The notes under the pieces were generated by a model. That model had not been told where the DNA came from. It did not search any database and saw nothing but the letters and a program-made list of their open reading frames with translations. From NCBI GenBank assembly GCA_037479115.1, contig JBBFLK010000002.1:62001-126000 (forward strand): 64,000 nt of DNA. Direction: 5' to 3'. The DNA comes from Anaerohalosphaeraceae bacterium. GTDB lineage: Bacteria > Planctomycetota > Phycisphaerae > Sedimentisphaerales > Anaerohalosphaeraceae. The translations under genes were made by a program, and so were the position numbers. How positions within the stretch are numbered: the first letter of the stretch is position 1; each line of letters opens with the position of its first letter. Shown one piece after another: positions 9,001 through 56,312 of this stretch.

Positions 9001-9382
9001 GCTGACCGAAATACGTATCATTCGGGACCAGAGCCTTGGTTCGGATATAATCAGGGCTGGCATACTGCACTCCCGGCGTCGCCTGGAAAGCGATTCGAGC
9101 CTTTTGGACATCAACCCCGGCAGGCAATTTCACCAAAGCCAAACCAGGCACGAGGTCCCCCATCATCCGAACAATCGTCCCGCCGCCGGCCTGCTGCACA
9201 ACCGCCGTCCTTATGGCCGCTGCAGTGGAACTGGTGCCTGTTTCATAAAAGCGCACCAGCAAATACCCGTCCCGATACAAAGGAAGATGGGAAGGGTTGG
9301 AAGGATTTTGGAAGAAACCTGCTATGCCGAGAGAAGAAAGGACAAAAAGAACGAGAACAGCCCAAGAAACCTTGCGTGCCAT
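1..9382 (-). CDS. Giant exported subtilisin-like protease with three beta-helix modules (3' end outside window)
   Basis: One uninterrupted minus-strand frame runs from an ATG at 9382, preceded by GGAGGG four bases upstream, to base 1, giving more than 3,120 residues with the C-terminus outside the window. Residues 1-25 look like a signal peptide. A family S8 catalytic domain follows, with Asp in a DTG motif near residue 166, His in GHGTHVAG near 220 and Ser in GTSMASPHVAG near 395. Two fibronectin-III-like segments span roughly 440-690. Three large modules follow, each opening with a DGD-IV-PG-Y start block, continuing with NC-F-N-A--GGA coils typical of right-handed parallel beta-helices, and ending in D-G--D-GYHY. 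The second and third modules are preceded by an InlB-B-like repeat. Gly/Asn-rich GGNGGNG loops are inserted between coils. It is probably a secreted or surface protease or adhesin. The substrate is unknown, and any anchor would lie beyond the window. Confidence 0.9.
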   Translation of the reverse strand, partial: MARKVSWAVLVLFVLSSLGIAGFFQNPSNPSHLPLYRDGYLLVRFYETGTSSTAAAIRTAVVQQAGGGTIVRMMGDLVPGLALVKLPAGVDVQKARIAFQATPGVQYASPDYIRTKALVPNDTYFGQLWGLHNVGQSGGTFDADIDAPEAWNLSVGNQNIVVAVIDTGIDYTHPDLQANLWVNTAELNGSPGVDDDGNGLVDDIYGYDFGDWDSDPMDEDGHGTHVAGTIGAVGNNSRGVVGVNWNVRVMALKASTKIVIDNVEHSVFYDSSLIAALNYAVQRGVKVSNNSYGGGSFNPAMYDALMAAQRAGHLFVAAAGNDASNNDAVPFYPAGYDLDLIVSVMATNRNDQRAYFSNWGRTTVDLAAPGQDILSTVPLSLDTDGTPDGYAFYSGTSMASPHVAGAAALLWSLSSTLTAAEVKQILMGSVDPLPSLNGFCVTGGRLNLYKALSSVQIEDTIPPFPNPAQWDIVPTATGLRHIVMQAQTATDPSGVQYYFECLENPNLSSGWQDEPLYILGDTPDERALLQPGTTYTFRCKVRDKSTRYNETAWSEAKQTTTAVEVDNLPPAPNPPRWKAVPRALGNLRLGMEAVTAYDENGVEYFFDCVEASEGNPDDYDSGWLTVPYYFTPVIPGGVAGKEFRFVLRVRQAGGGSGGLPEAITADSEPISVGYTTVPVTRHVPSAAYPTIQIAVNASRSGDRVVIHPGLYRETNILVDGKAITIRSLNPDNPDVVSQTIIDCEDIWNFWAGEERRAFIFRNVGRNTVLAGLTIRNATAFDDPDLYANSSVWESFSENGEVIYARGRDGRDAYGGAIYIGQKIPAPTNSRDEFSAYPKEFREINPASPTIRNCIFERCTAIGQAGSHGGNAPAVGPGRHGLPGARGGYGGNAYGGAIFAVQGSSPLIYGCRFTDCAAVGGNAGNGGNGSDGGEVPDSVERSPGYDGGSGGDAGKGGCAWGGAIYFEPDCKPELYNVSISNCYVQVGEAGRGGNGGNGGAGKDGPGGRGGPGGVGGDLREPYSAGGAIFFGENTEVLMDGCTFDNCRVIVELRGDYSGGNGGNGGPGGNAPNGPGGNGGPAYFVPDKLYELGTVRDALGNLLQEGVRANGGTGGNGNPGGAGGFRFGGGGSVNGRSFSGHTGIWPSNLYYMAYYWEDTGNIDNSYTHTEDLEDYLRGTWFEWDVKNNYPPFPIEFEEGYTDILIVRNPIIFYSPYYPFYGFLLTTEEYEVTLETSDPNNADDPATWYWSRANQPISSETVFMRQLSATDPDKPNAGACAGANFYGAGSVVTMKNTTISNCRAFANHGGAELYDKGSRAVFENCVFEGNSVYADVSNPTDYRYEGFGGGIFADQPESMVFTNCVFRSSDAFSGGALYCNFAPSTEDKAGVLQLTNCTFSGNAADYHFVQSSAGGLYAGNSLTPYEESYFNNFFPQGDSPGDRQREIDTFVTSEYINHGRVNFYYIVQTELWDNRTDLDRILAGEQSPRYTVSITDGLFENHISPSGGGFYADASQLEIRRTQFTGNTGHLGASGFVYGCNLTASENVFSGNSGVYIAPRRQLDSSSFSSLICAAGLYVSDSDVLLTSNRFVENESDGYAGALALIGPPLNWDRPQEVINNLFFQNTALSGGGAVQAAWSSDVSLVNCTFVDNTATNMQYGAGGALSAYDSFVDVTNSIFWNNKAVLGSQISVGDPFDTWDIPFTTVLLDYSIVQGGLRGTYVAPGIQPWLWYGPNNLQTDPLLVDFGSAQMPLARTAYLSHLAAGQLADSPCINAGWGDAAWLASRLGYPVTTRTDHEPDSGRVDIGYHYNADPTLVKTYTLNASVFVADVNPMGKLKASWTANDVLNEVGPAVVLPPITVTQGTVVRLEAVPDDPSLYRVRQWRGTNNDASVAAVNFVVVGMDRTATVEFEVGIPKFIPVPSQVATLSEAIALARDGDTIVLAPRPGIPYTIEFVDTDFDGIGEGLDLQGKSIVITSENPDDPLIVASTVIDCGGTRYQPSRGFVFRSGEGPSTVIQGLTIRNGFMVGALGLSGAIVNGPYPPIEQTPLPPPRANSGMDAFGDGYGGAILCTNGSSPTIRKCVFENCTVTGGYGGDGNNGRPAIENAQAPDNDGQSGGHGGSGYGMGYGGAIACVGNSSPIIEACVFRNNKAMGGCGGNGGNGSNGETGGKGSWGGNGGDAYGNGVGGAIYADTGCQPTIRNCIFENNIAQHGIPGTGGSAGTGQAYQQPYNVFYPGADGTVNVYPNQPLDGGAVRLGNDAEANIIGCTFIGNYAFEDTFENWLDNLVPVTWRMYTNGGAVAVGTSSRLLLQDCLFKENMGGAVWCDDYTTLEVENCEFSNNGTYEKVPGIDFYTEYELAFLRSVDESLLSDMMESLGEAGAITLGKHSPSAVVTNSRFFGNYTLGSGGAIRSDSSLTLTDCVFGGNTASRGGAVEMYFNPTPTQSARTLMLQITGCSFADNDAFLLGGAVFGRKVNLAVENGTFVRNEARSGGGIYVTEGEMNIGNSIFTLNTATGIKRYYQTASGEGQGGAIACMNAKADIWNSRFAENRAEGQTGQGGAVNFTNGDVLLSHRLSNCLFTDNWAQQSGGAVAAKVGSSPVIEFCTFSGNLVGASGNGGAVYIGPNGAAVFSHTIVAGSNGTAVAEDAPADSQFQRCLFYGHIGADYTASLPADTLRADPRFEAGPLGKCYLNQTLSPAVNAGLVTASSIGLHQFTTDPADLAADTGMADLGYHYPFASGLPTYTLNAYVEGGLGTVTVVPAQPFYYKGQIVELTAQVNTGYVITGWSGTIHDSSTDTANRAVIDGNKVVLVKVRPQKTLYVGGSAAYNSLSQAMNDAKDGDIIVVNPGLYQTTSNTNLDLETFASFAGKRLTIRSSNPDDPETVENTIFDRQGLYLIGLKEGSLIEGLTFRQSNLIIQRSSATIRNCRFVSCNWNGGTGVTPQGCAQDGVNGGIAEGGAIDMRESSVRFIGCLFEGNSMTGGNGTNGNAGCDAHPDGGDGGWPGWAYGGAVSCQFSSDAVFENCTFRNNFVLGGNGGNGGAGKAPPNPGYGGLGGGWNYSDQVEIGWLIDRGWDGWTNGHKYDFPLTYLEMYDWEIFAKWFELDTNKYKSWKDFYRYYQYDPYDAY
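2889..2928. repeat. Nine-base iterations encoding GGN/GGNG loops in the protease gene
   Basis: The plus strand shows near-perfect iterations of a nine-base unit of the form TTGCCGCCG. On the coding strand they encode Gly-Gly-Asn loops between beta-helix coils. Further copies lie near 261-283, 6192-6214, 6391-6412 and 6597-6618. They keep the reading frame, so gain or loss of a unit would change loop length without breaking the protein. Confidence 0.7.
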
Positions 9383-9819
9383 GGCACCCTCCGTAAAGGA
9401 CCCTTTATTTCCCATTTTGACGGCTTTCCAAAATATTGTTCGTGTATCGTTTTACTCGACTTCGTGAACATCCTCATGATGTACCGTGAGTCCAGACAAC
9501 ACCTTTACCGTATCGGAAAACGTAAAAGGCGAGTTTATCCTACCTTACCAAAATGCCCATTTTTAGTCAAGAAGCTTTGAAAATACACAAACTGAACAAC
9601 CTGGAGAAAGATGATTTTATAGGACTAAAAAAACCCCCAATCGAATAAGAACAATTTTTGTCCCTATAATCGCAAAATGACCTATAAAAAATGAATTATA
9701 AAACCAGAAAATAAATGATGTTTTATCATAGCAATTTTTCTTTTCTTTTTCCAGTTTTTTTTGTATTTTTCCATCATTTCTAAAGTGGAACCACAGATAG
9801 CGACCTAATATATCTTTTT
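9383..9819. other. Divergent intergenic region, AT-rich towards aroA
   Basis: These 437 bases separate the giant protease gene (-) from aroA (+). No coding frame, tRNA or strong terminator was found. The part from about 9600 to 9819 is very A/T-rich with homopolymer runs. A TAATAT sequence at 9806-9811 could be a -10 element for aroA, but no convincing -35 is visible. No clear promoter was identified for the protease. Confidence 0.5.
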
Positions 9820-13148: not shown

Positions 13149-13349
13149 GATGTAGGTACCTCCGCAGATGCCGTGCGGAATCGATTGAAAGCAACCCTGT
13201 ATGTTTAGGTGGGCGGCCGTTGCGGAAGTCCGGAACGTCCTGTCAGGCAGGCTTGTCCGATCCTTGCCGACCTGGCCTCCCCGATAGGGTGCATCGGTTC
13301 TTTCAAATTAGCGTTTCCGTCACGCACACCGCAGGGGCCAACCTGCATC
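13149..13349 (-). ncRNA. ssrS: Structured small RNA, candidate 6S RNA
   Basis: About 200 nt with no coding frame on the transcribed strand. The two ends pair: GATGCAGGT at 13349-13341 with ACCTACATC at 13157-13149, with one mismatch. The RNA then folds back as a long imperfect rod through CCCC/GAGG, GTGCG/CGCAC, TTGAAAG-like/CTTTCAA and AACC/GGTT helices separated by internal loops. Size, single rod shape with bulges, a sigma70-type promoter at exactly the right distance and an intrinsic terminator at its 3' end all fit 6S RNA, which binds RNA polymerase holoenzyme. The 3' portion contains CGGCATCT, similar to the E. coli 6S 3' region. It lacks the SRP GGAAGCA loop and tmRNA or RNase P hallmarks. 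Identity is inferred from architecture only. Confidence 0.6.
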
Positions 13350-41358: not shown

Positions 41359-41742
41359 TTATTGAATATGATCAGCTACGGCCTTCAGTAAGGTTTCCGG
41401 CTTAATCGGTTTTTCCAGCACCTGCTTGACAGGCAGCCAGGTCTGATCGGGTTCAAAACCGAACGGCAGATTCATTTCCCGCCGCACTCCCGTCACCATC
41501 ACAACCGGCGTCCCCTTGACCCCTTCCAGTTCATTCAGCTGACGGGCGACATTAAACCCCTCATCTTTGGTCGTCATCATCACATCGAGGATAATCAGGT
41601 TGGGCTTTTCCTTTTTGGCGGCCTCTACGCCCTCTTTTCCATTGGAAGCGGAAACCACCTCATATCCGCGGGCTTCCAGCAGATTCTCAATGCTTTCCAC
41701 AAAATCCGCATCATCATCGATAATCAGTACTTTTTTCGCCAT
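41359..41742 (-). CDS. Single-domain response regulator receiver (CheY-like)
   Basis: 127 residues, one REC domain only. The acidic pocket DDD lies at residues 9-11, the phosphorylatable Asp in ILDVMM near residue 53, and the conserved Lys in EKP near 111. It has no output domain. AGGGAG precedes the ATG. It is the last gene of the rex-histidine kinase-hydrogenase run, 27 bases after hndA, so its partner is likely the kinase at 46267-48096. Confidence 0.93.
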   Translation of the reverse strand: MAKKVLIIDDDADFVESIENLLEARGYEVVSASNGKEGVEAAKKEKPNLIILDVMMTTKDEGFNVARQLNELEGVKGTPVVMVTGVRREMNLPFGFEPDQTWLPVKQVLEKPIKPETLLKAVADHIQ

Positions 41743-41769
41743 GTGCAGTCTCCCTTTTCAACGGTTTCT

Positions 41770-42306
41770 TCAAGGTTTCCCACGTCGAGCTTCCGCCCCG
41801 ACAGCCGATTTTTCCTCTGCGGCGGCCTTGCGATACTGGTTAATTATATCAATTGTTTTTTTACTATCCAGTTGTCCGTAAATCTTTTCGCCAATCATCA
41901 TCACCGGGGCAATCCCGCAGGCCCCCAGACAGCGGGCTTCCTGAAGGGTAAACAGACCATCGGCCGTCGTCTTGCCGACTTCAACGCCCAATTCTTTTTT
42001 GAGGGTTTCCAGGACGCCGGCGGCGCCTTTGACATAACAGGCCGTTCCCATGCAGACACTCACCACATACCGTCCGATGGGCTCCAGATTAAAGTAGTGA
42101 TAAAAGGTCGCCACCCCCCAGATATGGGCGGTCGGAATCTCGAGTGTCTGGGCAACTTCGTCCATCATCTCACGAGGCAGATAGCCGAAAATCTCCTGAA
42201 CCTTATGCAGAATCCCGATCAGATGCGATTCCGGATGAGCATCGTTTCGGGCCGCCTGCATGGCCTCCCGAAGGGCCTGAAGTTTTTCCGTTTGAACCTG
42301 AGTCAT
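41770..42306 (-). CDS. hndA: NADH-linked [FeFe]-hydrogenase [2Fe-2S] subunit (HndA/NuoE-like)
   Basis: 178 residues. The NuoE-type thioredoxin-like [2Fe-2S] domain has Cys in CMGTAC and, 36 residues later, CLGAC, with the helical N-terminus LIGILHKVQEIFGYLP. It overlaps the hydD/hndD stop by four bases (ATGA). It passes electrons within the trimeric or tetrameric electron-bifurcating hydrogenase. The C-terminal tail is longer than usual (EEKSAVGAEARRGKP). Confidence 0.93.
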   Translation of the reverse strand: MTQVQTEKLQALREAMQAARNDAHPESHLIGILHKVQEIFGYLPREMMDEVAQTLEIPTAHIWGVATFYHYFNLEPIGRYVVSVCMGTACYVKGAAGVLETLKKELGVEVGKTTADGLFTLQEARCLGACGIAPVMMIGEKIYGQLDSKKTIDIINQYRKAAAEEKSAVGAEARRGKP

Positions 42307-44093
42307 TTTGAATCTCCCGACATGGTGCGTTCTTTTCTCGGAATAATCCCCACCGGCGTTTTGGCCTTATAATGGGTATGCAGGTACTGATGAGACACCG
42401 GACTGAGCGGGCTCTGGAGAAACTCCTTATACAGTTTCTGCACATCCGGATTGTCATGGCTTCGCCGGATGGTTTTGGCTTTGTCCAAATCATAAAGGGC
42501 CTGCGCCCGCTTCCGCAGATTGTCATCATCAAGCGGAATGGAATTAATCTGGGCATACGGCTGACCGCCGCCGCCGACGCATCCGCCCGGACAGCCCATA
42601 ATCTCAATGAAGTGATACCGAGAAGGGTCTTGGCGGACTCGTTCCAGAAGCCGGCAGGCATTGCCCAGACCGTGGGCGACGGCCACCCGGATTTCCTTGC
42701 CGTCCATGACGATGCTGCCCTCTTTGATGCCCTTGAGCCCCCGAACGGCCTCCACCTCGATATCCACGAGGGTCTCACCGGTATAAAGCTCATACGCCGT
42801 TCGAATGGCGGCTTCCATCACTCCGCCTGTGGCCCCGAAAATCGCACCGGCACCGCTGGAAATCCCGAGCGGATGGTCCGGCTCTTCGGGCTGAATATGA
42901 ACCAAATCAATCCCGGCGGATTTGATCATCCAGGCGGCTTCACGGGTCGTGACAACAATATCCACTCCCCGCATCCCGTCAAACATCAGCTCGGGCCGTG
43001 CGGCTTCATATTTCTTGGCCGTACAGCACATCACGGCAACACTGAGGATTTTGCGGGGGTCAATCTTTTTCTTCCGGGCAAAATACGTCTTGGTCACCGC
43101 TCCCTGCATCGACATCGGCGACTTGCAGGTGGAGACATTCGGAATCAGGTCCGGATAAAACTGTTCCAGACATTTCATCCAGGCACTGGAGCAGGACGTA
43201 ATCATCGGCAGCACGCCGCCGCTTTGAAGCCGTTCGAGAAATTCGCTGGCTTCTTCCATAATCGTCAAATCCGCCGCAAACTGCGTATCGAACACATAAT
43301 CAAAACCCAGTTTGCGAAGCGAGGCAACCAGCTGTCCTTCCATATTCAGACCGGGCTCCAGCCCAAAGGCCTCTCCGATAGCCGCCCGCACAGACGGTGC
43401 AAACTGAACAACCTTCACCAGATTCGGGTCGTTGAGCTTTTCGAAAAGTTCCTGCGTATAATTCTTTTCCAGGAACGCCGCCGTCGGACAGACATTGATG
43501 CACTGGCCGCAGGCGGTGCAGACGCTTTCCCCCATCGGCATATTGTAGGCGGGCATCACGACGGTATGAAACCCGCGATGGGCCTGGGTCAGATTGTGGA
43601 CCTGCTGAATCTCCGAACACATTCGCACGCAGCGCCCGCACAAAATGCACTTTTCAGGGTCTCGGATAACGGCGTCGCTGGACAGGTCTTTTTCATACCG
43701 CTTGCGTTCGCCCTCAAAATGCCGGGCCCGAATGCCCATGGACGCCGCCAACCGCTGGAGTTCACAGTTGCCGTCACGTTCGCAGGTGTGGCAATCCTGC
43801 GGATGGTTATCCAGAATCAGCTCAATAATGTCCCGGCGGGCCGTCCGCAGGGCCTGCGTATTTGTGCGAATCTTCATTCCATCACTGACGGGGAAGGCAC
43901 AGGAAGCCACATAATTCTTCATTCCTTCCACTTCCACAATACAAACCCGGCAGGCCCCTTCAATCGACAGTTTGGGGTGATAGCAAAGCCGGGGGATATG
44001 AAACCCGAGCTTGTCGGCCGCCTGCATGATCGTCTGGTTCGGCTCGACCTGATAGGGTTTATCGTTAATGGTAATGGTAATCAATCGGCTCAT
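42303..44093 (-). CDS. hndD: Catalytic subunit of NAD(H)/ferredoxin-dependent [FeFe]-hydrogenase with altered H-cluster motifs
   Basis: 596 residues from ATG 44093 (GAGGGA upstream). The N-terminus has a [2Fe-2S] ferredoxin domain, a His-Cys3 cluster segment (DCHTCERDGNCELQ) and two [4Fe-4S] motifs (CILCGRCVRMC, CTACGQCINVC). The H-cluster domain follows. L1 is TSCSSAW (Cys301, Ser302, Ser303) instead of TSCCPxW, so the second Cys, which normally binds the H-cluster [4Fe-4S], is Ser. L2 is MCCTAKK with an extra Cys356 at the usual Pro, plus the normal Cys357. L3 is MGCPGGCVGGGG with Cys501 and Cys505. The CKSP and GGVMEAA segments are normal. It is the H2-forming subunit of a bifurcating HndABCD/HydABC complex. 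Activity with these changes is uncertain. Confidence 0.92.
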   Translation of the reverse strand: MSRLITITINDKPYQVEPNQTIMQAADKLGFHIPRLCYHPKLSIEGACRVCIVEVEGMKNYVASCAFPVSDGMKIRTNTQALRTARRDIIELILDNHPQDCHTCERDGNCELQRLAASMGIRARHFEGERKRYEKDLSSDAVIRDPEKCILCGRCVRMCSEIQQVHNLTQAHRGFHTVVMPAYNMPMGESVCTACGQCINVCPTAAFLEKNYTQELFEKLNDPNLVKVVQFAPSVRAAIGEAFGLEPGLNMEGQLVASLRKLGFDYVFDTQFAADLTIMEEASEFLERLQSGGVLPMITSCSSAWMKCLEQFYPDLIPNVSTCKSPMSMQGAVTKTYFARKKKIDPRKILSVAVMCCTAKKYEAARPELMFDGMRGVDIVVTTREAAWMIKSAGIDLVHIQPEEPDHPLGISSGAGAIFGATGGVMEAAIRTAYELYTGETLVDIEVEAVRGLKGIKEGSIVMDGKEIRVAVAHGLGNACRLLERVRQDPSRYHFIEIMGCPGGCVGGGGQPYAQINSIPLDDDNLRKRAQALYDLDKAKTIRRSHDNPDVQKLYKEFLQSPLSPVSHQYLHTHYKAKTPVGIIPRKERTMSGDSK

Positions 44094-44101
44094 GGAATCC
44101 C

Positions 44102-45895
44102 TCACACTTTCGCAATCGCATTAAACTTGCAGGCATCATAGCATTGTCCGCATTTGATGCACAGTTTCGGATCAATTGTATGTTTTTCTTTTCGATTTCC
44201 GGACACCGCATTGACCGGGCAGACCCGCTTGCAGGCCCCGCAGCCCACGCAGTTGTCCTGAACCACATAAGTCAGAAGGGCCGTACACTCATGCGCCCGG
44301 CATTTCTTCTGATGAATATGCTCTTCATACTCTTCCCGGAAATTCCGAATGGTGCTCAGCACCGGGTTGGGGGCGGACTGCCCCAGTCCGCACAGCGAAG
44401 CCTTCTGAATCATTGTGCCCAGCCGCTCAAGTTTTTCGATGTCTCCGGGGCGGCCCTGACCGCGGGTAATCCGAGTCAGGATTTCGAGCATCCGTTTGGT
44501 TCCTTCCCGGCACGGTGTGCATTTGCCGCAGGACTCATCCTGGGTAAACTCGATAAAGAATCGAGCCATTCGCACCATGCACGAATCCTCGTCAATCACA
44601 ATCATCCCGCCGGAGCCCATAATCGAGCCGGCCTTGGCGAGCGATTCATAATCAATCTGGGTATCCAGATACTGTTCGGGGAGGCACCCTCCGCTGGGCC
44701 CGCCAGTCTGAACAGCTTTGAACTTCTTGCCGTTGGGGATTCCGCCGCCGATGCCGAACACGATGTCCCGCAGCGTGGTGCCCATCGGCACTTCCACCAG
44801 ACCGGTATTGCGTACCTTGCCGGCCAGCGCAAAGACCTTGGTTCCTTTGCTGGTCGCCGTGCCGATGCTGCTGAACCAGTCAGCTCCGTCAATAATAATC
44901 ACCGGAATATTGGCCCACGTCTCAACGTTGTTAATCAGCGTCGGCTTGCCGAACAGACCGCTGACGGACGGATACGGGGGACGCGGACGGGGCATCCCGC
45001 GCGAGCCCTCTATGGAGTGAATCAATGCTGTCTCCTCTCCGCAGACAAAAGCCCCGGCTCCCAGGCAAATCCGAATGTCGAAGGAAAAATCCGTCCCGAG
45101 GATTCGCTCGCCGAGAAATCCCTCTCGCCGGGCGTCTTCAATCGCCTTTTTCAGCCGCTGGACCGCCAGCGGATACTCCGCTCGGATATAAATGATGCCC
45201 TGACGGGACCCGATGGCATACCCGCCGATAATCATTCCTTCCAGAACGGTATGCGGGTCCCCTTCAATCGCACTGCGGTCCATAAACGCCCCGGGGTCTC
45301 CTTCGTCGGCGTTGCAGATAACATATTTCTCCGGGTCGGTCTGTTTGGCGGTGTATTCCCACTTTAATCCGGTGGGAAACCCTGCACCGCCGCGGCCGCG
45401 CAGACCGCTTTTCTTGACCTCTTCAATCACCTGCTGCGGCGTCATCTCCGTAAGCACTTTGGCCAGGGCCTCGTATCCCCGCATCGCCAGATAATCATCA
45501 ATCTTTTCCGGGTCAATCACACCGCAGTTGCGAAGAGCAATCCGCATCTGCCGGCCGAAAAACTCCGAATCCCCGAAGATCCGGAAAAACCGGTTATACA
45601 AATGGTCCTCCTGAATTATCAGACGGGAAACCGGCCGTCCGTTTATCAGATGCTCCTGAACGATTTCTGACGCATCCTCCGTGCGGAGGTGACCGTACAT
45701 AATATAGCCCGGGTTGACAATCAGAATCGGGCCTTTGCCGCACATGCCCAGACAGCCGCTCAGATGAATCTGAACATTCTGCTGGAGCTGCTGCCGCTGG
45801 AGTTCTTCTTCAAAAACTTGACGAAACTCCCTCGCCTGATTCTTCAGGCATCCGGAGCCGTCGCAAAACGTCAATTTATACTGCTTGTCCGACAC
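44102..45895 (-). CDS. hndC: NADH-binding subunit of the electron-bifurcating hydrogenase (HndC/HydB/NuoF-like)
   Basis: 597 residues. The N-terminal thioredoxin-like [2Fe-2S] domain has C-x4-C (CDGSGC) and CLGMC. The NuoF core carries FMN/NADH signatures (GRGGAGFPTGLKW, NADEGDPGAFMDR), then an SLBB domain, the NuoF [4Fe-4S] motif SCGKCTPCREG and CGLG. A C-terminal two-cluster ferredoxin (CVGCGACKRVCP, CIKCGQCYDAC) is typical of HydB/HndC. It oxidises NADH or reduces NAD. It lies between hndB (15 bases upstream) and hndD (8 bases downstream). Confidence 0.95.
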   Translation of the reverse strand: MSDKQYKLTFCDGSGCLKNQAREFRQVFEEELQRQQLQQNVQIHLSGCLGMCGKGPILIVNPGYIMYGHLRTEDASEIVQEHLINGRPVSRLIIQEDHLYNRFFRIFGDSEFFGRQMRIALRNCGVIDPEKIDDYLAMRGYEALAKVLTEMTPQQVIEEVKKSGLRGRGGAGFPTGLKWEYTAKQTDPEKYVICNADEGDPGAFMDRSAIEGDPHTVLEGMIIGGYAIGSRQGIIYIRAEYPLAVQRLKKAIEDARREGFLGERILGTDFSFDIRICLGAGAFVCGEETALIHSIEGSRGMPRPRPPYPSVSGLFGKPTLINNVETWANIPVIIIDGADWFSSIGTATSKGTKVFALAGKVRNTGLVEVPMGTTLRDIVFGIGGGIPNGKKFKAVQTGGPSGGCLPEQYLDTQIDYESLAKAGSIMGSGGMIVIDEDSCMVRMARFFIEFTQDESCGKCTPCREGTKRMLEILTRITRGQGRPGDIEKLERLGTMIQKASLCGLGQSAPNPVLSTIRNFREEYEEHIHQKKCRAHECTALLTYVVQDNCVGCGACKRVCPVNAVSGNRKEKHTIDPKLCIKCGQCYDACKFNAIAKV

Positions 45896-45910
45896 AACAG
45901 GTCCCTTTCC

Positions 45911-46264
45911 CTAAATCACCCATTCCTGGATTACTTCACCTTTTTTCAGATGCCGTTCAATGATTTCACGGGCTCGCTCGGGCGTCACCAGACCGTATTT
46001 GACGGGGACTTTGCCTTCTTCGACCACCTCCACCGTCGGCTCCAGATTGCAGCGGCCGGCACAGCCCTTCTGGCTCAGATACACATCGGTCAATCCTTTT
46101 GCAATGGCATCCTGAAAAACCGCCATTACGTCCTTGGAGCCGGCGGCGATTTCACAGGTCGCCATCCCCACATAAACACGTTTGGTAGACAGATACCCTT
46201 TGCTGATAATGCGGTTCACCGCTTCCGCACGCTTTTTTCGGATTAAATCCATCGGCGTAACCAC
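45911..46264 (-). CDS. hndB: Thioredoxin-like [2Fe-2S] ferredoxin subunit (HndB-like)
   Basis: 117 residues. The [2Fe-2S] thioredoxin-like fold has Cys in MATCEIAAGS near residue 36 and in KGCAGRCNLEP near residues 68-72. It resembles HndB of NADP-reducing hydrogenases and HydC-type subunits. The predicted start is GTG 46264, two bases after the kinase stop codon, and an internal ATG at 46252 is also possible. It is the first structural gene of the hydrogenase set. Confidence 0.9.
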   Translation of the reverse strand: MVTPMDLIRKKRAEAVNRIISKGYLSTKRVYVGMATCEIAAGSKDVMAVFQDAIAKGLTDVYLSQKGCAGRCNLEPTVEVVEEGKVPVKYGLVTPERAREIIERHLKKGEVIQEWVI

Positions 46265-46266
46265 GT

Positions 46267-48096
46267 TTAAGCCCTTTCAATATCAAAAATGAATGCGTTT
46301 CCTCCGGCCCTCGGCTCCACTCGAATCTGTCCGCCGTGGGCCTCTATGATCTGTTTGGTGATATACAGTCCCAGACCGGTTCCCTTGACCTTTTTCTTGT
46401 CCGGATTGTCCAGCCGGGAGAATTTCCTGAACAGCATCGGCAATTCGTGCGGTTCAATCGGACGCCCGTCATTATAGACTTCTATCTCCACCCGCCCGTC
46501 CAGCACCCGGGCCGACAATTCAACGCGCCCCCCTTCGGCGCCGTATTTGGCGGCATTGTTAATCAGATTATTGGCCACAATCTGGAGCAGGTCCGGATCG
46601 GCATTGACCCGCAGAGCCGGATCAATCCGATTGACGATGGACATCTGCTTGTCTTCGAACATTTTGGAAAACGTCTGCACGGAAACATCCACAATATCCT
46701 TCCGCAGACAAACCGGCTGCTTGTTGATTTCAAGCTTTTCCCGTTCAATCCGGCTTAAGTTCAGAAACTTCTTGACCGTGGCATCCAAATAATCCAGATT
46801 TCGGCAAATCGAATCAATCGCCCGCTTCTGTTTGAAATTCAGCATTCCCAGCAGACCGTCCCGCAGCGAATACGCATTGATGACGGCAGAGGCCAGCATC
46901 CCTTTTAATTCATGAGCCACAAAACCGATCAAATCCAGATAACTTTTATTCAGTTCGGCCAGCTTCTCGTTGCTGATTTTCAAAGACAGTTCCCGCTGAC
47001 GCAGCTGCACACTCATCTCATTGAACGACTTGGCCAGCTGGTCCAGCTCCTCGACAGAGGTCTCTGCGGGGACTTCGTGCCCCCATTCCCCCTTGGCGAG
47101 TTTTCGCGTCGCCTCCAGCAGCAGCGTAATCGGGCGGAGAATGGACCCCGTCAGGACAAATGCCACAATGCCCGCCAGCAGCAAGGCGGCCGAAACCGCC
47201 AGCAAAAACAGCAGCAGAATCCTGGCAACAATATCGGTCAGCTGCTCCTCCAGAATCCCGACATACAAAATTCCAATGATGTTTCCATCCAGGTCGCGAA
47301 TCGGTTCATAAGCGGAACGGTACCAGTTGCCCACGACCTCCGCCCGGTCATGCCAGCGTTTTCCCTGCCGAATCACACTGTCATAAACAGCTTGGGAAAC
47401 ATAAGTCCCCACAGCCCGCCGGCCCTTTTTGTCCAGAACATTCGTGGCAATCCGAATGCCGTCCTGAAAAATGGTTACCGTCCCGACTGGTTTGCCGTGA
47501 TACTGCTCATCCCCGAAAACAAGAAGCCGAAGTTTATCCACAAACGTATAATCCTGATTCACCAGCCGTCCGCCGTAAATCACAAACGCGATTTGTCCAT
47601 CCGGCCCACAAAGGGGCAGGGCGTATTCCTTGACAATTCCGCCTTCTGTAAAAAGAGCTCCCTGAGAAGGATTTTTAATCGGAATCCGAGCCCTTTCCTG
47701 AACCTCCTGAGGCATTCGCGCCATTTCTCCCGGGCTGACCAGACGGGTTCCCCCCACTGGGAAACCACTTTCAAGGACTTTCTGAACAATACGGCTCTCG
47801 GACTTCTTTGCTTCCTCCGTCGGCAGCCGGAACAGATAATCAATATCGAGTCTCTTTCGCAGAGAGTCCAGGTCCTGTTCATAGGAAACCAATTTCATCC
47901 GGATGCCGATGTTTTCTATTTCGCTGTTATAAAACAGCCGTGCACTGTCCAAATAGCGGTTCACCTGTTTTTGGGTCCGCTCAAAAAGCTGCTGCTGGAT
48001 CACCCAATACCCCAGACAGAAGACACTGACTGCCAGGGTGATGTTCACCGTCAGGAACGAAAACAGCAGACGAGTTTTGAGCGTTTTAATTTTCAT
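46267..48096 (-). CDS. Membrane histidine kinase with sCache-like sensor, HAMP, HisKA and HATPase
   Basis: 609 residues. TM1 lies near residues 10-30. A periplasmic sensor of about 260 residues follows, with sCache-type features (KPVGTVTIFQDGIRIATNVL, GTYVSQAVYDSV, GNWYRSAYEPI). TM2 is near 293-315, then HAMP. The H-box FVAHELKGM puts the phospho-His near residue 393. The ATPase N, G1 and G2 boxes (NNLINNAAKYG, KGTGLGLYI) follow. Its ATG overlaps the rex stop by four bases, so the two are translationally coupled, and hydrogenase genes follow at once. I infer that it senses an extracytoplasmic small molecule related to hydrogen or redox metabolism. Confidence 0.93.
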   Translation of the reverse strand: MKIKTLKTRLLFSFLTVNITLAVSVFCLGYWVIQQQLFERTQKQVNRYLDSARLFYNSEIENIGIRMKLVSYEQDLDSLRKRLDIDYLFRLPTEEAKKSESRIVQKVLESGFPVGGTRLVSPGEMARMPQEVQERARIPIKNPSQGALFTEGGIVKEYALPLCGPDGQIAFVIYGGRLVNQDYTFVDKLRLLVFGDEQYHGKPVGTVTIFQDGIRIATNVLDKKGRRAVGTYVSQAVYDSVIRQGKRWHDRAEVVGNWYRSAYEPIRDLDGNIIGILYVGILEEQLTDIVARILLLFLLAVSAALLLAGIVAFVLTGSILRPITLLLEATRKLAKGEWGHEVPAETSVEELDQLAKSFNEMSVQLRQRELSLKISNEKLAELNKSYLDLIGFVAHELKGMLASAVINAYSLRDGLLGMLNFKQKRAIDSICRNLDYLDATVKKFLNLSRIEREKLEINKQPVCLRKDIVDVSVQTFSKMFEDKQMSIVNRIDPALRVNADPDLLQIVANNLINNAAKYGAEGGRVELSARVLDGRVEIEVYNDGRPIEPHELPMLFRKFSRLDNPDKKKVKGTGLGLYITKQIIEAHGGQIRVEPRAGGNAFIFDIERA

Positions 48097-48725
48097 TCAA
48101 TTTGTCCGGTTTTCTGCATCGCATTGACAAAATAAATCAGATTTTCCAGTTCCACCTCAAGATTAATGTTATTGATGATGACCCGTTCGGCCCCTCGCAG
48201 CTGAATCGGGGCAAAGTTGAGAATCCCCATGATTCCCGAGCGAATCATCAATTCGGAGACATGATGAGCAGCAACATCCGGTACAGACAGAATTCCGACC
48301 CGAATGGAGTTTTGCTTGACAAAATCGGCAAACTCCTCCAGCGGAAGAACCGGCGGGTCCGACTGCCGATGGATTTTTTCCGGGTCGATGTCAAAGGCCG
48401 CGACGATTTTAATTCCGCCCGATTCAAAGCCTTTGTACCGCATCAGGGCGGTTCCAATATTGCCGGCCCCCACTAAAACCACCCGCTGGAGCTCATTTTT
48501 TCCGAGGATTTCGAGGATTTTGGCAATCAGTTCATCGACACTGTAGCCCCCTCTTCGATTGCCCGTAATTCCAAAGAGGGAAAAGTCCTTGCGAACCTGA
48601 GAGGAAGTCACGCCAGCCGCATCAGCCAGATTGCCCGAAAAAACCTTCACGAAACCGAGGGCTTTCAGACGCTGAAGAGCGCTTTTATAACGCGACAATC
48701 GAATTATGCATTTCCTGTTCACCAT
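48093..48725 (-). CDS. rex: Redox-sensing transcriptional repressor Rex
   Basis: 210 residues, normal length. The N-terminal winged helix has RLSRYKSALQRL and VTSSQVRKDFSLFG, the Rossmann NAD(H) site is VGAGNIGTALMRY near residue 90, and the C-terminal domain-swapped helix is VELENLIYFVNAM. It senses the NADH/NAD+ ratio. It starts the operon that encodes the kinase and the NADH-linked hydrogenase, which fits control of H2 formation by NADH. AAGGGGA precedes the ATG. Confidence 0.96.
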   Translation of the reverse strand: MVNRKCIIRLSRYKSALQRLKALGFVKVFSGNLADAAGVTSSQVRKDFSLFGITGNRRGGYSVDELIAKILEILGKNELQRVVLVGAGNIGTALMRYKGFESGGIKIVAAFDIDPEKIHRQSDPPVLPLEEFADFVKQNSIRVGILSVPDVAAHHVSELMIRSGIMGILNFAPIQLRGAERVIINNINLEVELENLIYFVNAMQKTGQIE

Positions 48726-48826: not shown

Positions 48827-48843
48827 GAATATTTGATATTTTT

Positions 48844-48871
48844 TTCACAATAAATTTTGACCTTTTCACAA
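48844..48871 (-). promoter_or_regulatory. Tandem TTGTGAA half-sites upstream of the rex promoter, possible Rex operator
   Basis: On the minus strand TTGTGAA occurs at 48871-48865 and 48850-48844, 21 bases apart, which is two helical turns. TTGTGAA is one arm of the Rex consensus TTGTGAANNNNTTCACAA. The matching second arm is degenerate at both sites. They lie upstream of the -35. Confidence 0.5.
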
Positions 48872-51181: not shown

Positions 51182-52285
51182 CTATGCGAATTTATCGTAA
51201 TAAATCTTTTCGTCGGGTATCCCCATCTGCCGAAGAACCCGAATCGCCGCCTCAATCATTCCAGGGCCGCCGCACAGATACCCCTCCCAGCCGTCCAGCC
51301 GTTCAAAACTGCGCTGCACCGCTTCGGTCACCAGCCCGGTCTGACCGGACCAGCGGCTTTCGGGAGCCGGCCTGGCCACGACCGGCACAAAACGAAAGTT
51401 CGGCAGGGCCTGCTCAAACGCCTTCATTTCATCCAGCAGACACAAATCCTCTGTGCGGTTTGCTCCGAAAAAGAAAACCGTCTGACGGCCGTCATCGGCA
51501 TGTTTCATCTGCCAGAGGATGGAAACAAACGGCGCAATGCCGCTGCCGCCGGCGATAAACAGTTTCGGCGTCTGCGTATCCCGAAGATAAAAATCGCCGA
51601 ACGGTCCGGTGAACGAAACAGGGTCTCCCTCGCGAAGATATTCAAAGCACCAGGTGGTGCAGATGCCTTTCGGAACGCGGCGGATAATCAAATCAATCCG
51701 TCGATTCTCGAGCGGATCGGAGGCGATGGAATACGCCCGCATCACTTCTTCCCGGCTGCCTTTATAAGGCGGACAGCGAAGCTGAACATACTGGCCGGCC
51801 GTAAATGGAATCGTATCCGGCTCTGTCAGTTCAAAGGTAAACCGCTTCATATCATAGGTCAGGTCTTCGATACGGCTGCATCGGGCCTGATACTGGCGCA
51901 CCCGAAAGAGCTCCTCCGGAATCTCAATCGCCAGCGGCCCGCGCACTTTGACCTGGCAAGACAGCCGGACGCCGGCCTGCTGCTCCTGTTTGGTTAAAAG
52001 AGGCGTTTCCGTAGGCAGGAGCGGCCCCCCTCCTTCGAGGACCTTCACTTTGCACACGCCGCAAGTGCCCCGGCCGCCGCAGGCGCTGGGAATAAAAATC
52101 TTCTTTTCCTGCAGCGACGATAAAAGCGATTTTCCGCCTTGAACCGTCTCTTTGCGGGAACCGTTAATCATCACTTCACAGGAACCGTAGTTTAAAATCA
52201 GCCCCTCACAAACAACCAGAATCAGCGTCAAGAATGCTGCCGTTGAGCTGACCGCCAGAACATCCCGGATAATCTCAAGCACCAT
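51182..52285 (-). CDS. nqrF: Na+-translocating NADH:quinone reductase subunit F
   Basis: 367 residues, about 40 shorter than typical NqrF. One N-terminal membrane helix (TAAFLTLILVVCEGLIL) is followed by a [2Fe-2S] domain with CGGRGTCGVC and LSCQV, and an FNR-like module with RAYSIAS for FAD and GGSGIAPFVSI for NADH. It is the NADH-oxidising entry subunit. It overlaps the nqrE stop by one base. No RnfB or RnfC features are present, so the complex is Nqr, not Rnf. Confidence 0.94.
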   Translation of the reverse strand: MVLEIIRDVLAVSSTAAFLTLILVVCEGLILNYGSCEVMINGSRKETVQGGKSLLSSLQEKKIFIPSACGGRGTCGVCKVKVLEGGGPLLPTETPLLTKQEQQAGVRLSCQVKVRGPLAIEIPEELFRVRQYQARCSRIEDLTYDMKRFTFELTEPDTIPFTAGQYVQLRCPPYKGSREEVMRAYSIASDPLENRRIDLIIRRVPKGICTTWCFEYLREGDPVSFTGPFGDFYLRDTQTPKLFIAGGSGIAPFVSILWQMKHADDGRQTVFFFGANRTEDLCLLDEMKAFEQALPNFRFVPVVARPAPESRWSGQTGLVTEAVQRSFERLDGWEGYLCGGPGMIEAAIRVLRQMGIPDEKIYYDKFA

Positions 52286-52884
52286 CAGGACAGCACCCCC
52301 GTAAAACCGATAAACGCCAGCGCCATCAGGCCGGCGATAATCAGAGTAATTCCAGGTCCCTGAAGCCCCGCCGGCACACGGGACTCATTAAACCGCTGGC
52401 GAATTCCCGCCATGGCCAAGATGGCCAGAAGCCAGCCCAACCCGCTGCCGAAACCGTATCCAATCGTCACAATCAGGGAATACTCGCGGATGACCATAAA
52501 AAGCGAGGCCCCCAGAATCGCACAGTTAACCGTAATCAGCGGCAGAAAAATGCCGAGATTCTGATAGAGCCGAGGCGAGAACCGGTCCAGAATCATCTCG
52601 ACCACCTGCACAAACGCCGCAATGATGATAATAAACAGGATGAACCGGAAAAACTCCAGTCCCAGCGGAACCAGAATCCAGTGATAGGCCATCCAGTTCA
52701 GCAGACAGGTAAACGTCATCACAAAAACCACCGCCCCGCCCAGCCCGGCGGCGGTTCGCACTTCGCGGGATACGGACGTAAACGGGCACATCCCCAAAAA
52801 CGTCGTCAGCAGGATGTTGTTGGTAAACACCGCCGCAAAGCAAACCACAACCGCCTGCCAGAGTTCCGCGCCAAGACCGTTCAT
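52285..52884 (-). CDS. nqrE: Na+-translocating NADH:quinone reductase subunit E
   Basis: 199 residues, six membrane helices. NqrE/RnfA-family features include AAVFTNNILLTTFLGMCPF and PLITVNCAILGASLFM, with conserved Cys on inverted half-helices that bind the intramembrane iron centre. The ATG overlaps the nqrD stop by four bases. Confidence 0.95.
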   Translation of the reverse strand: MNGLGAELWQAVVVCFAAVFTNNILLTTFLGMCPFTSVSREVRTAAGLGGAVVFVMTFTCLLNWMAYHWILVPLGLEFFRFILFIIIIAAFVQVVEMILDRFSPRLYQNLGIFLPLITVNCAILGASLFMVIREYSLIVTIGYGFGSGLGWLLAILAMAGIRQRFNESRVPAGLQGPGITLIIAGLMALAFIGFTGVLS

Positions 52885-53504
52885 TTTTTAACCTCCCTGG
52901 GCCGAATCGACCGGCAGGCCCAAATGACACAAGCCAGCACAAAAAACCCGCCCGGCGGCATCACCATAATAATCCACTTATCCCAATGCGTGGAAAAATA
53001 CGGCAGCGGCCAGCCGCAGAAGGTTCCCATCCCCAGCCCTTCCCGAATGACCGCAATCCCAAGCAAAACGGCGGAATACCCCAACCCGTTAAAGAACCCA
53101 TCCCAGAAGGCCGGACCCGGCGGATTCGAACCGGCAAAGGCCTCGCAGCGGCCCATCACGATGCAGTTGGTGATAATCAGCCCCACATATGGGCCCAGAC
53201 TGCGGCTCATATCCGGCCAATAGGCCTTCAGGACCACATCCACAATAATCACATAGAAGGCTATAATCAGCGTCTGCACCATCATTCGGATATTCCGGGG
53301 AGTCCAGCTGCGCAGCAGTGAAACCGTCCAGCAGCTTAAGGCCGTTACGAGCGTCAGAGCCGTACACATCACAAAGGTGTTCAGCACCAGATTGGTCACG
53401 GCCAGCGTACTGCAAATCCCCAGAATCTGGCGAAAGATAGGGTTATCCTTCCAGAGCCCATCGCGAATGATTTCCTGCATGGGTTTGACCGAAGCCGTTT
53501 TCAC
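52881..53504 (-). CDS. nqrD: Na+-translocating NADH:quinone reductase subunit D
   Basis: 207 residues, membrane protein of the NqrD/RnfE family. Visible are LWKDNPIFRQILGICSTLAVTN, VGLIITNCIVMGRCEAFAG and the conserved Cys in these half-helices. It pairs with NqrE. It is coupled to nqrC and nqrE by ATGA overlaps. Confidence 0.95.
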   Translation of the reverse strand: MKTASVKPMQEIIRDGLWKDNPIFRQILGICSTLAVTNLVLNTFVMCTALTLVTALSCWTVSLLRSWTPRNIRMMVQTLIIAFYVIIVDVVLKAYWPDMSRSLGPYVGLIITNCIVMGRCEAFAGSNPPGPAFWDGFFNGLGYSAVLLGIAVIREGLGMGTFCGWPLPYFSTHWDKWIIMVMPPGGFFVLACVIWACRSIRPREVKK

Positions 53505-54112
53505 AATCGCCCCTCCCTGCGCATCGCATCCAGCCAGTCTTTCAGCTGTTCATTCAAAATCGCCTCCAGACGCACACAGGTCTGTGTGGCTCCGCTGATG
53601 GCGTGCACCTGCCCTTCCGACAAAACCGTCCCCTCCGGCTTCAGCTCCAGCAGCAGCCCCTGCGAGCGAAGCCGCAGCCCCTCAAACTGACGGCGGAAAA
53701 ACGGCTCCACAATCCGGGCCCCCAAGCCCGGGGTTTCATTGACCTCATAAAAAGCCAGCCCCAACAGCTTTTGACCGTCCGGAGAAACGGCGGCAACTCC
53801 CTTGATGGGAGCCCAGAATCCTTTCCCTTCAAAAGGCAGAGCAAAACCGGCAAGGACACCGTCTTTTTTATAAACCCAGGCCTTCCCATATTCCGGGTTC
53901 TGAGCGAAATGCTCCTGAAACAGCCGGTTGACCTCGGCATCCGTTTTATAGGAGAAGTTTCCGAAAGCCGTCAAAACCGCCTTTTCAAAAGCCAAACGTT
54001 CATTGGCCAGAACGCGCGTCTGCGTTCCCCGGGCAAACCCGATAATCAGCGTGCTGAAAAACGCTGTAATCAGAAACATATAACCGACGGCATAGAAAGA
54101 GCGGGAATTCAT
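53501..54112 (-). CDS. nqrC: Na+-translocating NADH:quinone reductase subunit C
   Basis: 203 residues. One N-terminal membrane helix is followed by a periplasmic FMN-binding domain. The flavinylation motif is SGATQTC near residue 177, where FMN is attached to Thr. NETPGLGARI is also typical. It is shorter than Vibrio NqrC, lacking an insert. It is coupled to nqrB by an ATGA overlap. Confidence 0.94.
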   Translation of the reverse strand: MNSRSFYAVGYMFLITAFFSTLIIGFARGTQTRVLANERLAFEKAVLTAFGNFSYKTDAEVNRLFQEHFAQNPEYGKAWVYKKDGVLAGFALPFEGKGFWAPIKGVAAVSPDGQKLLGLAFYEVNETPGLGARIVEPFFRRQFEGLRLRSQGLLLELKPEGTVLSEGQVHAISGATQTCVRLEAILNEQLKDWLDAMRREGRL

Positions 54113-55170
54113 ACAGCCGCCTCCTGAACCGGTTTTCTTCGCTGCTGCCAGGCATTGACCGCCACATCCAGAATCGGAGCAAACATATTGCCCAGCAGAA
54201 TCGAAAACATCAGACCGCCGTTAAAAATGGAAAAGTTTCGAATCACCAGGGTACAGGTCCCAATGAGAATCCCATAGATAATTTTGGCCGGTTCCGTACG
54301 CGGCGAGGTGACAGGGTCTGTCGCCATAAAAAAGGCACCGAACAAAAAGCCCCCTCCGAGAACGGCCATCATCGCTCCAGGCACCGGCTGAACACCCAGT
54401 TGATACAGAATTTCATTTAGAACTGCGTAGGAGCCGACCGTTGAGAGGATGACGGTCCGGCTGGCTGTTTTGGTGACAAAGAGATACAGCCCCCCTATCA
54501 AAATCAGCAGGGCACTGGTTACCCCCGCCGAACCGCCGATTCGCCCGAAGAAAAGCCCTTTGAATATCGTCCATTTGGAGACGGTCACGGTTTGTTTTTC
54601 GTCGATGAGAAAAGGAATATCTCCAGCCGGCTCGGTCCAGGTCCCCAGCTGAATCCTGCCGGCTTTTTTATGAGCCATCGGAGTGGCACTCGTGACGGCC
54701 GATACGCCGTCCGGCCCGACGGCGGTTGTCCATTGCAGCAAGGCCCCAAGCGGCCCCTGTGCCGGCGGCGCCCAGATGCCGGTCATTGCCACAGGAAAAC
54801 AGACATAGACAAAACAGCGTCCGGCCATGGCGGGATTAAAAAAATTCCTGCCGAATCCGCCGAAAACCTCCTTGCTAAAAATGACCGCAAAGGCCATCCC
54901 GACCGCCAGCACATGCCAGCCCACAGTCGGCGGCATAATCAGAGTAAAAAGAACTGCGGTAACAAAGACCGCTTCGCTGACGGGCTCGTTTCGGCGGCGG
55001 CAGAAAAGCCATTCGAGGGAAAAACCCCATACGCAGCAGAAGGCCGCCATCGCGACAATTCGAAAACCGAAATAATACCAGCCGCCCAGCAGACAGGGCA
55101 CCAGCGCCAGCAGCACTTTTCGCATCGCCGGCTGCCTGCGGAGCCAAGACTGTCGGGCCTGCGGGGTCAT
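54109..55170 (-). CDS. nqrB: Na+-translocating NADH:quinone reductase subunit B
   Basis: 353 residues, multiple membrane helices. The FMN-attachment region is SAVTSATPM near residue 168, and GGFGRNFFNPAMAGRCFVY and GGGFLFGAFFMATDPVTSP are NqrB/RnfD signatures. It is the first nqr gene in this window. An nqrA gene, normally immediately upstream, is not present; the upstream neighbour is a ferritin-like gene 46 bases away. Confidence 0.95.
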   Translation of the reverse strand: MTPQARQSWLRRQPAMRKVLLALVPCLLGGWYYFGFRIVAMAAFCCVWGFSLEWLFCRRRNEPVSEAVFVTAVLFTLIMPPTVGWHVLAVGMAFAVIFSKEVFGGFGRNFFNPAMAGRCFVYVCFPVAMTGIWAPPAQGPLGALLQWTTAVGPDGVSAVTSATPMAHKKAGRIQLGTWTEPAGDIPFLIDEKQTVTVSKWTIFKGLFFGRIGGSAGVTSALLILIGGLYLFVTKTASRTVILSTVGSYAVLNEILYQLGVQPVPGAMMAVLGGGFLFGAFFMATDPVTSPRTEPAKIIYGILIGTCTLVIRNFSIFNGGLMFSILLGNMFAPILDVAVNAWQQRRKPVQEAAV

Positions 55171-55216
55171 CGGATGTCTCTTGCCTCCCTGCCGCTGCGG
55201 ATTTCAATCCGTTCTG

Positions 55217-55705
55217 CTACAAAGACTGGAGTTTGGCCCCCAGTGCCGTTACGTGGGACATCTCCTCAACAATAATTTTTTCAATTTTGTCTTTGCCGGA
55301 TTTTGTCGGCACGAGCCCCTTGATGCCGACATAGAATGCAATGGAATCTTTTTCGGCATTGATTGCAATCTTCAGCAGCTCCGCCATTGACTCTTTTCCG
55401 GTCAGTTTTTCCATCGGGCCGGCCTTGCCTTCTGTGCCGTGGAAATCCGCCATCGTCTTGAGGTATTGAGCCGCTTCGCCGTCCGGATCATAGACAGCCG
55501 TATCTTTTTCTGAAGGCGACAAGTCCTTCCGCATCAGCGCGAAGGTCTTCTCATGCCCCTCTTCCATGACCGCCAGGTCCAGCAGCATCTTTTTCAAATC
55601 CGGTTTGGCGGCCTTGCCGGCTGCTTCCCGATAAAACCGAGCCGCATTGCTCTCAATTCGCTCTGCAATTTCAAAAATCTCGTCCGCATTAAAAGTGATG
55701 GCCAT
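55217..55705 (-). CDS. Ferritin-like diiron protein without rubredoxin domain
   Basis: 162 residues from ATG 55705; GGGAG nine bases upstream lies inside the ftn end. Four-helix diiron features are EIAERIESNAARFYREAA, EEGHEKTF, AEKDSIAFY and EEMSHV, the rubrerythrin arrangement. No rubredoxin C-terminus is present. It is probably a peroxide- or O2-scavenging or iron-sequestering protein. It lies between ftn (4-base gap) and nqrB. Confidence 0.88.
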   Translation of the reverse strand: MAITFNADEIFEIAERIESNAARFYREAAGKAAKPDLKKMLLDLAVMEEGHEKTFALMRKDLSPSEKDTAVYDPDGEAAQYLKTMADFHGTEGKAGPMEKLTGKESMAELLKIAINAEKDSIAFYVGIKGLVPTKSGKDKIEKIIVEEMSHVTALGAKLQSL

Positions 55706-55709
55706 AAGT

Positions 55710-56207
55710 TTAGTCTCCCGCACCACGCTGTCCCATTTCCTTATCGAGCATATAAAGGCCGCCTTTGCTGTCCTGAACCATTCTGATTTTCGCCAAAATC
55801 AGTTCCGCAGCGGCTTCCTCTTCCACCTGTTCGCTGACAAACCACTGGAGAAACACGCCGGCGGCATAATCTTTCTCCTGGGCAGCCGTTTCGACCAGTT
55901 TATGAATCAAAGCGGTCACATGCCGTTCATGCTTGAGCACCTCTTCAAACATCTTTAGCAGAGATTCCCAGTCGGTCGGGGGAGCGGCAATGGCCCCCAG
56001 TTTGACCCGCCCGCCGCGCTCCACAATATGATGGTAAAACTTCATCGCATGGGTCATTTCTTCCTGGGCCTGGGCCCGCATCCAGTGAGCAAAACCGGGC
56101 AGCTGCATCTCCTCGAGGGCGGCTGACATCGACCAGTACAGGTAGGCTGAATAAGTTTCTGCGGCCAGCTGTTCATTAAAGGCCTTTTCGATTGCCTTGG
56201 AAATCAT
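55710..56207 (-). CDS. ftnA: Ferritin
   Basis: 165 residues from ATG 56207 with GGGGAGA upstream. The non-haem ferritin fold has AETYSAYLYWSM, HWMRAQAQEEMTHAMKFYHHI and EQVEEEAAAELIL supplying the ferroxidase ligands. It oxidises and stores iron, limiting Fenton chemistry. It has its own promoter-like sequence at 56264-56291. Confidence 0.95.
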   Translation of the reverse strand: MISKAIEKAFNEQLAAETYSAYLYWSMSAALEEMQLPGFAHWMRAQAQEEMTHAMKFYHHIVERGGRVKLGAIAAPPTDWESLLKMFEEVLKHERHVTALIHKLVETAAQEKDYAAGVFLQWFVSEQVEEEAAAELILAKIRMVQDSKGGLYMLDKEMGQRGAGD

Positions 56208-56263
56208 AACTATCTCCCCTTTTGCTTGTGTTCCGTTTCCACAGACCGCTTTTCTGTGCTGAT

Positions 56264-56291
56264 ATTGTACAGCCGTCTGTTTTTTTTGCAA
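56264..56291 (-). promoter_or_regulatory. Sigma70-like promoter upstream of ferritin
   Basis: On the minus strand TTGCAA (56291-56286) and TACAAT (56269-56264) are 16 bases apart, inside the 105-base gap between the flavodiiron gene and ftn. It could drive ftn through rubredoxin independently of perR. Confidence 0.6.
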
Positions 56292-56312
56292 TCTGTTGTT
56301 TTTCTTTTTGGT

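Follow-up and report, generated by a model that had tools for sequence, protein, structure and literature searches.

Architecture of the hydrogenase operon

In the window, the 64,000-nucleotide stretch of an Anaerohalosphaeraceae bacterium genome that was analysed as a whole, the minus strand, to which all coordinates below refer, carries an operon in the order Rex, histidine kinase, [2Fe-2S] protein, HydB, HydA, HydC and response regulator, the gene ends overlapping or nearly touching. The first gene (48093..48725) encodes Rex, an NADH/NAD+-sensing repressor that scores 228 bits against the NF003996 model (cut-off 138). It is followed by a sensor histidine kinase identified by its Cache and HAMP domains (46267..48096), a small thioredoxin-like [2Fe-2S] protein, HndB-like by position and weakly matching [2Fe-2S] ferredoxins (45911..46264), the NuoF-like subunit HydB (44102..45895), the [FeFe]-hydrogenase catalytic subunit HydA (42303..44093), the NuoE-like [2Fe-2S] subunit HydC (PF01257; 41770..42306), and a response regulator whose only domain is a receiver (41359..41742). 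The kinase, the thioredoxin-like protein and the regulator are conserved neighbours of the hydrogenase genes; across 41359-48725, the Cache kinase and the receiver-only regulator correspond to hydrogenase partners conserved in many loci of Planctomycetota and Omnitrophota. Upstream of rex lies a Rex-box-like site, TTGTGAAAAAAATATCAA (48833..48850), with two mismatches to the sequence that we take to be the Rex-box consensus, and it is the only match of this quality within the window. The site stands just upstream of a promoter-like TTGACT-16-TATATT element ahead of rex, and control of the operon by Rex according to the NADH/NAD+ ratio would fit this candidate arrangement, which is suggestive of such regulation.

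The HydA frame contains no internal stop codon and encodes 596 amino acids, with a GTG at 44105, 12 bases upstream, as an alternative start. Besides the Fe_hyd_lg_C and Fe_hyd_SSU domains, the protein scores 499 bits against TIGR02512, the model for group A [FeFe] hydrogenases (cut-off 406), and 843 bits against NF040763, the NADH-dependent [FeFe] hydrogenase group A6 model (curated cut-off 765). The AlphaFold2 model of HydA has a pLDDT of 86.8, exceeding 90 in the L1-L2 blocks, and superimposes over its full length on HydA of Thermoanaerobacter kivui, HydA of Acetobacterium woodii and the Clostridium pasteurianum hydrogenase CpI with TM scores of 0.89-0.91. CpI shares its fold, accessory clusters and proton path with HydA of the window, whereas it is monomeric, reads TSCCPGW and MPC in the cluster motifs and is 38% identical. 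The HydABC enzymes of T. kivui and Thermotoga maritima share the fold, the subunit plan and the bifurcating type, but their HydA has the canonical TSCCP and an L2 with MPC; the T. maritima query, a stretch that we presume to represent this HydA, matched the solved chain 7p5h_A along its whole length. Profile and alignment assign HydA of the window to group A6, as the catalytic subunit of a HydABC complex, and the family, operon and subunits of the complex can be read directly from the encoded proteins; Rex control, the direction of the reaction and H2 activity are presumed.

HydB, which has a [2Fe-2S] domain at its N terminus and two [4Fe-4S] domains at its C terminus, has its best match in A. 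woodii HydB (7q4v_B, 817 bits). Bifurcating beta subunits are marked by GGPSG, Ala/Met near the NADH site and a C-terminal pair of [4Fe-4S] clusters (PMC7311640). The window's HydB carries these marks of electron-bifurcating HydABC, with GGPSG, a GAFMDR segment identical to that of A. woodii and a C-terminal ferredoxin domain for the [4Fe-4S] pair. These features argue against an NADH-dependent complex without bifurcation, a decidedly unlikely reading that draws on the NCBIfam description of group A6 as "NADH-dependent", in which bifurcation is not claimed. Genes for the maturases HydF and HydG lie at other places in the same genome.

Several further elements were observed. Within the window, genes for an NqrF-like protein, an FMN-binding subunit and an NqrB/RnfD-like protein (51182-56312) suggest a sodium-pumping NADH dehydrogenase beside the hydrogenase region, an open frame of more than 3100 codons runs off the window start (1-9451), and a 6S RNA above the Rfam gathering score lies near tRNA-Glu and tRNA-Met (13155-13340). 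Contig 31 of the genome encodes two additional HydA-like proteins: L002, which is group B-like (SSCCPAY and GPC), and L003, which is of the sensory-like group C (SSACP), near a phosphatase-like frame.

Residues around the H-cluster

The L1 motif of HydA (residues 299-305, 43179..43199) reads TSCSSAW, encoded by ACG TCC TGC TCC AGT GCC TGG, and the L2 motif (residues 355-361, 43011..43031) reads MCCTAKK, encoded by ATG TGC TGT ACG GCC AAG AAA. In the alignment with CpI, Cys301 corresponds to Cys299, Ser302 (43188-43190) to Cys300, Ser303 to Pro301, Cys356 (43026-43028) to Pro354, and the adjacent Cys357 to the conserved ligand Cys355. Cys300 of CpI is a ligand of the [4Fe-4S] part of the H-cluster, as is its counterpart in the algal enzymes. 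In line with the original prediction, translation and codons bear out both altered motifs, and the numbering of Ser302 and Cys356 is correct. The altered L1 position was likewise correctly named as a cluster-binding one, the second L1 cysteine being listed among the four H-cluster ligands (PMC11011570). A single sequencing error is ruled out, as had been claimed, because the combination of TSCSSAW and MCCTAKK is shared by 28 of the 30 best HydA loci in the search for relatives (74-100% identity, the window's own copy included).

The published group A motifs TSCCPxW and MPCxxKxxE thus stand against TSCSSAW and MCCTAKKYE in the window, whereas the group A L3 pattern ExMxCxxGCxxG is present as EIMGCPGGCVGG, within the L3 motif EIMGCPGGCVGGGGQP (42558..42605) that supplies the ligands Cys501 and Cys505. 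The view that the remaining segments are intact holds for L3 in this sense, but it overlooked four further differences from CpI: Cys323 within STCKSP (43125..43127; Ala321 in CpI), Met327 (43113..43115; Gln325), Ala304 (Gly302) and Gly500 (Ala498). In the following, positions given as 300, 301, 321, 325, 354 and 498 are those of CpI.

The cysteine preceding the second L1 cysteine is the proton donor (PMC3485046), and this residue, Cys299 in CpI, is retained. A sensory function had been raised for the variant, and the conservation of the Cache kinase and the receiver-only regulator in the operons of many members would accord with a low-activity sensory or signalling hydrogenase paired with the adjacent kinase and regulator. 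HydA displays none of the three features of group C (HydS), namely a PAS domain, a replaced proton-transfer cysteine and altered Met353 or Met497: it has neither a PAS nor an output domain, and Cys299, Met353, Met497 and the proton path are kept. The full HydABC set of the bifurcating type is present, and the genome encodes the separate group C-like protein L003, in which, unlike in the window's HydA, the proton-transfer cysteine is replaced. A sensory role is therefore contradicted and is considered very improbable.

Distribution of the serine and cysteine variants

The frequency of the two substitutions was assessed in 268 HydA sequences, 267 from other loci plus the window's own, which were picked by similarity to the query and do not constitute a census. 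In this similarity-picked sample, position 300 is serine in 219 sequences and cysteine in 49. Serine is also found in the solved bifurcating enzyme of A. woodii (PDB 7q4v, 7q4w and 8a5e), whose HydA1 reads TSCSPGW...SSCKSPQ...MPCTAKK; this enzyme shares Ser300, Cys321 and three subunits with that of the window, and differs in having TSCSPGW, MPC and Gln325 instead of TSCSSAW, MCC and Met. The TSCSPGW motif had been remarked upon in a Melainabacteria genome paper (PMC3787301), the only comment on a serine in L1 found in the literature searched. Ser302 is, on this comparison, not unusual among the relatives of the window's HydA, and the published L1 motif, from which A. woodii HydA also departs, as do 219 of the 268 relatives, is too narrow for the group.

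From the A. woodii sequence and the first loci, Cys321 was raised as a universal substitute ligand, with Cys323 in CKSP serving this purpose in Ser300 enzymes generally. Cys321 is present in 188 of 219 Ser300 enzymes, compared with 26 of 49 Cys300 enzymes, and also in A. woodii HydA, which speaks for the proposal. It is absent from 31 Ser300 enzymes, and the contrasts on the phylogenetic tree described below are not significant (3.8 the same way and 1.7 the other way, of 10). At least one extra cysteine at 321, 354 or 498 occurs in 209 of the 219 Ser300 enzymes, so that some role for extra thiols may remain; the other ten, all among the 31, have none at these three positions, which weakens the idea of a universal substitute, and ligation by Cys323 is regarded as unlikely. 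Cysteine at 498, forming a CC doublet in L3, was observed in about 40 HydA, 39 of them with Ser300 and none with Cys354 (for example, L318, L317 and L253).

When 84,980 species genomes were searched for the pattern M-C-C-x-x-K-K-[YF]-E, at least 118 loci matched, the majority of which are HydA and some of which are chance open reading frames. Among the matches listed, HydA with Cys354 is assigned to Planctomycetota, Omnitrophota, Elusimicrobiota, Armatimonadota, Auribacterota, Sumerlaeota and others, labels that may err for metagenome-assembled genomes, and L1 reads TSCSSAW, TSCSAAW, TSCSSGW, TSCCPTW or, once, TSCSPGW. The same gene order recurs around other HydA with Cys354 over many phyla, the kinase and regulator being absent from the operons of some lineages. 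In the 268-sequence sample, all 118 Cys354 enzymes have methionine at 325, a position occupied by Gln, His or Met when residue 354 is proline; 105 of the 108 sequences with a non-proline residue at 301 carry Cys354, and Gly498 mostly accompanies it. Cys299, Lys358, Glu361, Ser319, Glu279, Glu282, Arg286, Met353 and Met497 (CpI numbering) are kept in the Cys354 subclade. Both Ser300/MPC and Cys354 enzymes are taken in by the single NF040763 model, in which the window's member, with its Cys354 set, scores lower than a Firmicutes member (843 versus 942 bits). The suggestion that the variant marks a subclass is thereby upheld, Cys354 being, as judged from these alignments, the mark of a conserved subclade that extends across several bacterial phyla.

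A test for evolutionary coupling of the two substitutions, and a proposed mechanism

Whether Ser300 and Cys354 belong together was examined both by counts and on a FastTree phylogeny that was built from 259 rows after masking of the motif columns. Ser300 occurs with Pro354 in 113 sequences and with Cys354 in 106, while Cys300 occurs with Pro354 in 37 and with Cys354 in 12, the last combination existing as TSCCPTW with MCC in 12 of the 49 Cys300 enzymes. At least 11 changes are required for Ser300 and at least 6 for Cys354 on the tree. In ten independent pairs differing at position 300, Cys354 changed the same way in 1.1, the opposite way in 0.4 and showed no difference in 8.5; the presence of any extra cysteine at 321, 354 or 498 is likewise not significantly associated with Ser300 on the tree. 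Cys354 changed the same way as non-proline 301 in 3.2 of five pairs (opposite in 0.1) and as Gly498 in 3.3 of five, numbers of pairs that cannot reach significance. Because the tree is unrooted, gain and loss of Cys354 are indistinguishable on it, and the five MPC sequences within the Cys354 clade (L027, L152, L033, L155 and L156) are apparent reversions.

The original prediction had proposed that the serine and the cysteine compensate each other, and this is not supported: on the tree, changes at 300 and 354 are not coupled, A. woodii HydA combines Ser300 with MPC, and in ten Ser300 enzymes none of the positions 321, 354 and 498 carries an extra cysteine. Mutual compensation of Ser302 and Cys356 was rejected on the counts and the ten tree contrasts. 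A related proposal is that Cys356 takes over the fourth [4Fe-4S] site left by Ser302, thereby altering the cubane potential. Ser300 does occur in 106 of the 118 Cys354 enzymes, and locus L084 combines Ser300 and Cys354 with Ala321. Such a relocation is nevertheless improbable in view of the 12 Cys354 sequences that keep Cys300, the 113 Ser300 sequences that have no Cys354, and the same want of coupling.

The reading that we prefer, with a probability of roughly 0.6, is that HydA is the H2-forming or H2-oxidising subunit of a bifurcating A6 HydABC that is under Rex control and linked to NAD(H) and ferredoxin, and in which Ser302 replaces the cysteine and Cys356 contributes to second-shell tuning. 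Electrons would enter through the flavin of HydB and pass along the iron-sulfur chain of HydA and HydC to an H-cluster for whose maturation the genome supplies HydF and HydG. Cys357, Cys501 and Cys505 would hold its [4Fe-4S] part, and at the fourth position Ser302 would stand in for cysteine, either as an oxygen ligand or beside a bound water, as may be the case in the A. woodii class. The Ser302 oxygen or water at this site is the simplest explanation, because ten Ser300 enzymes lack an extra cysteine at 321, 354 and 498 and the A. woodii enzyme bifurcates. Cys356 would represent a separate change, part of a second-shell remodelling, fixed in one subclade, that comprises Met325, Ser, Ala or Thr at 301-302, Cys354 and Gly498, and would probably tune the cubane's potential or packing, not replace a ligand. 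Since the proton path, Met353 and Met497 are intact, turnover is expected, and the protein is most likely an active enzyme in which the second shell of the H-cluster's [4Fe-4S] part has been remodelled.

In textbook motifs, four cysteines hold the [4Fe-4S] cluster, and one of these is serine in most of the sequences sampled from the group to which many HydABC enzymes belong. Genuine bifurcating hydrogenases would be lost by filters that demand TSCCP and MPC. The natural pairs of Ser or Cys at 300 and Pro or Cys at 354, including the apparent reversions, offer a test of how cubane ligation and the second shell affect potential, bias and oxygen sensitivity. It may be, as a tentative proposition, that the Cys354 subclade binds its [4Fe-4S] cluster in a non-standard manner, through the Ser302 oxygen or Cys356, with a shifted potential and bias, and that such enzymes are widespread in uncultured fermenters of multiple phyla.
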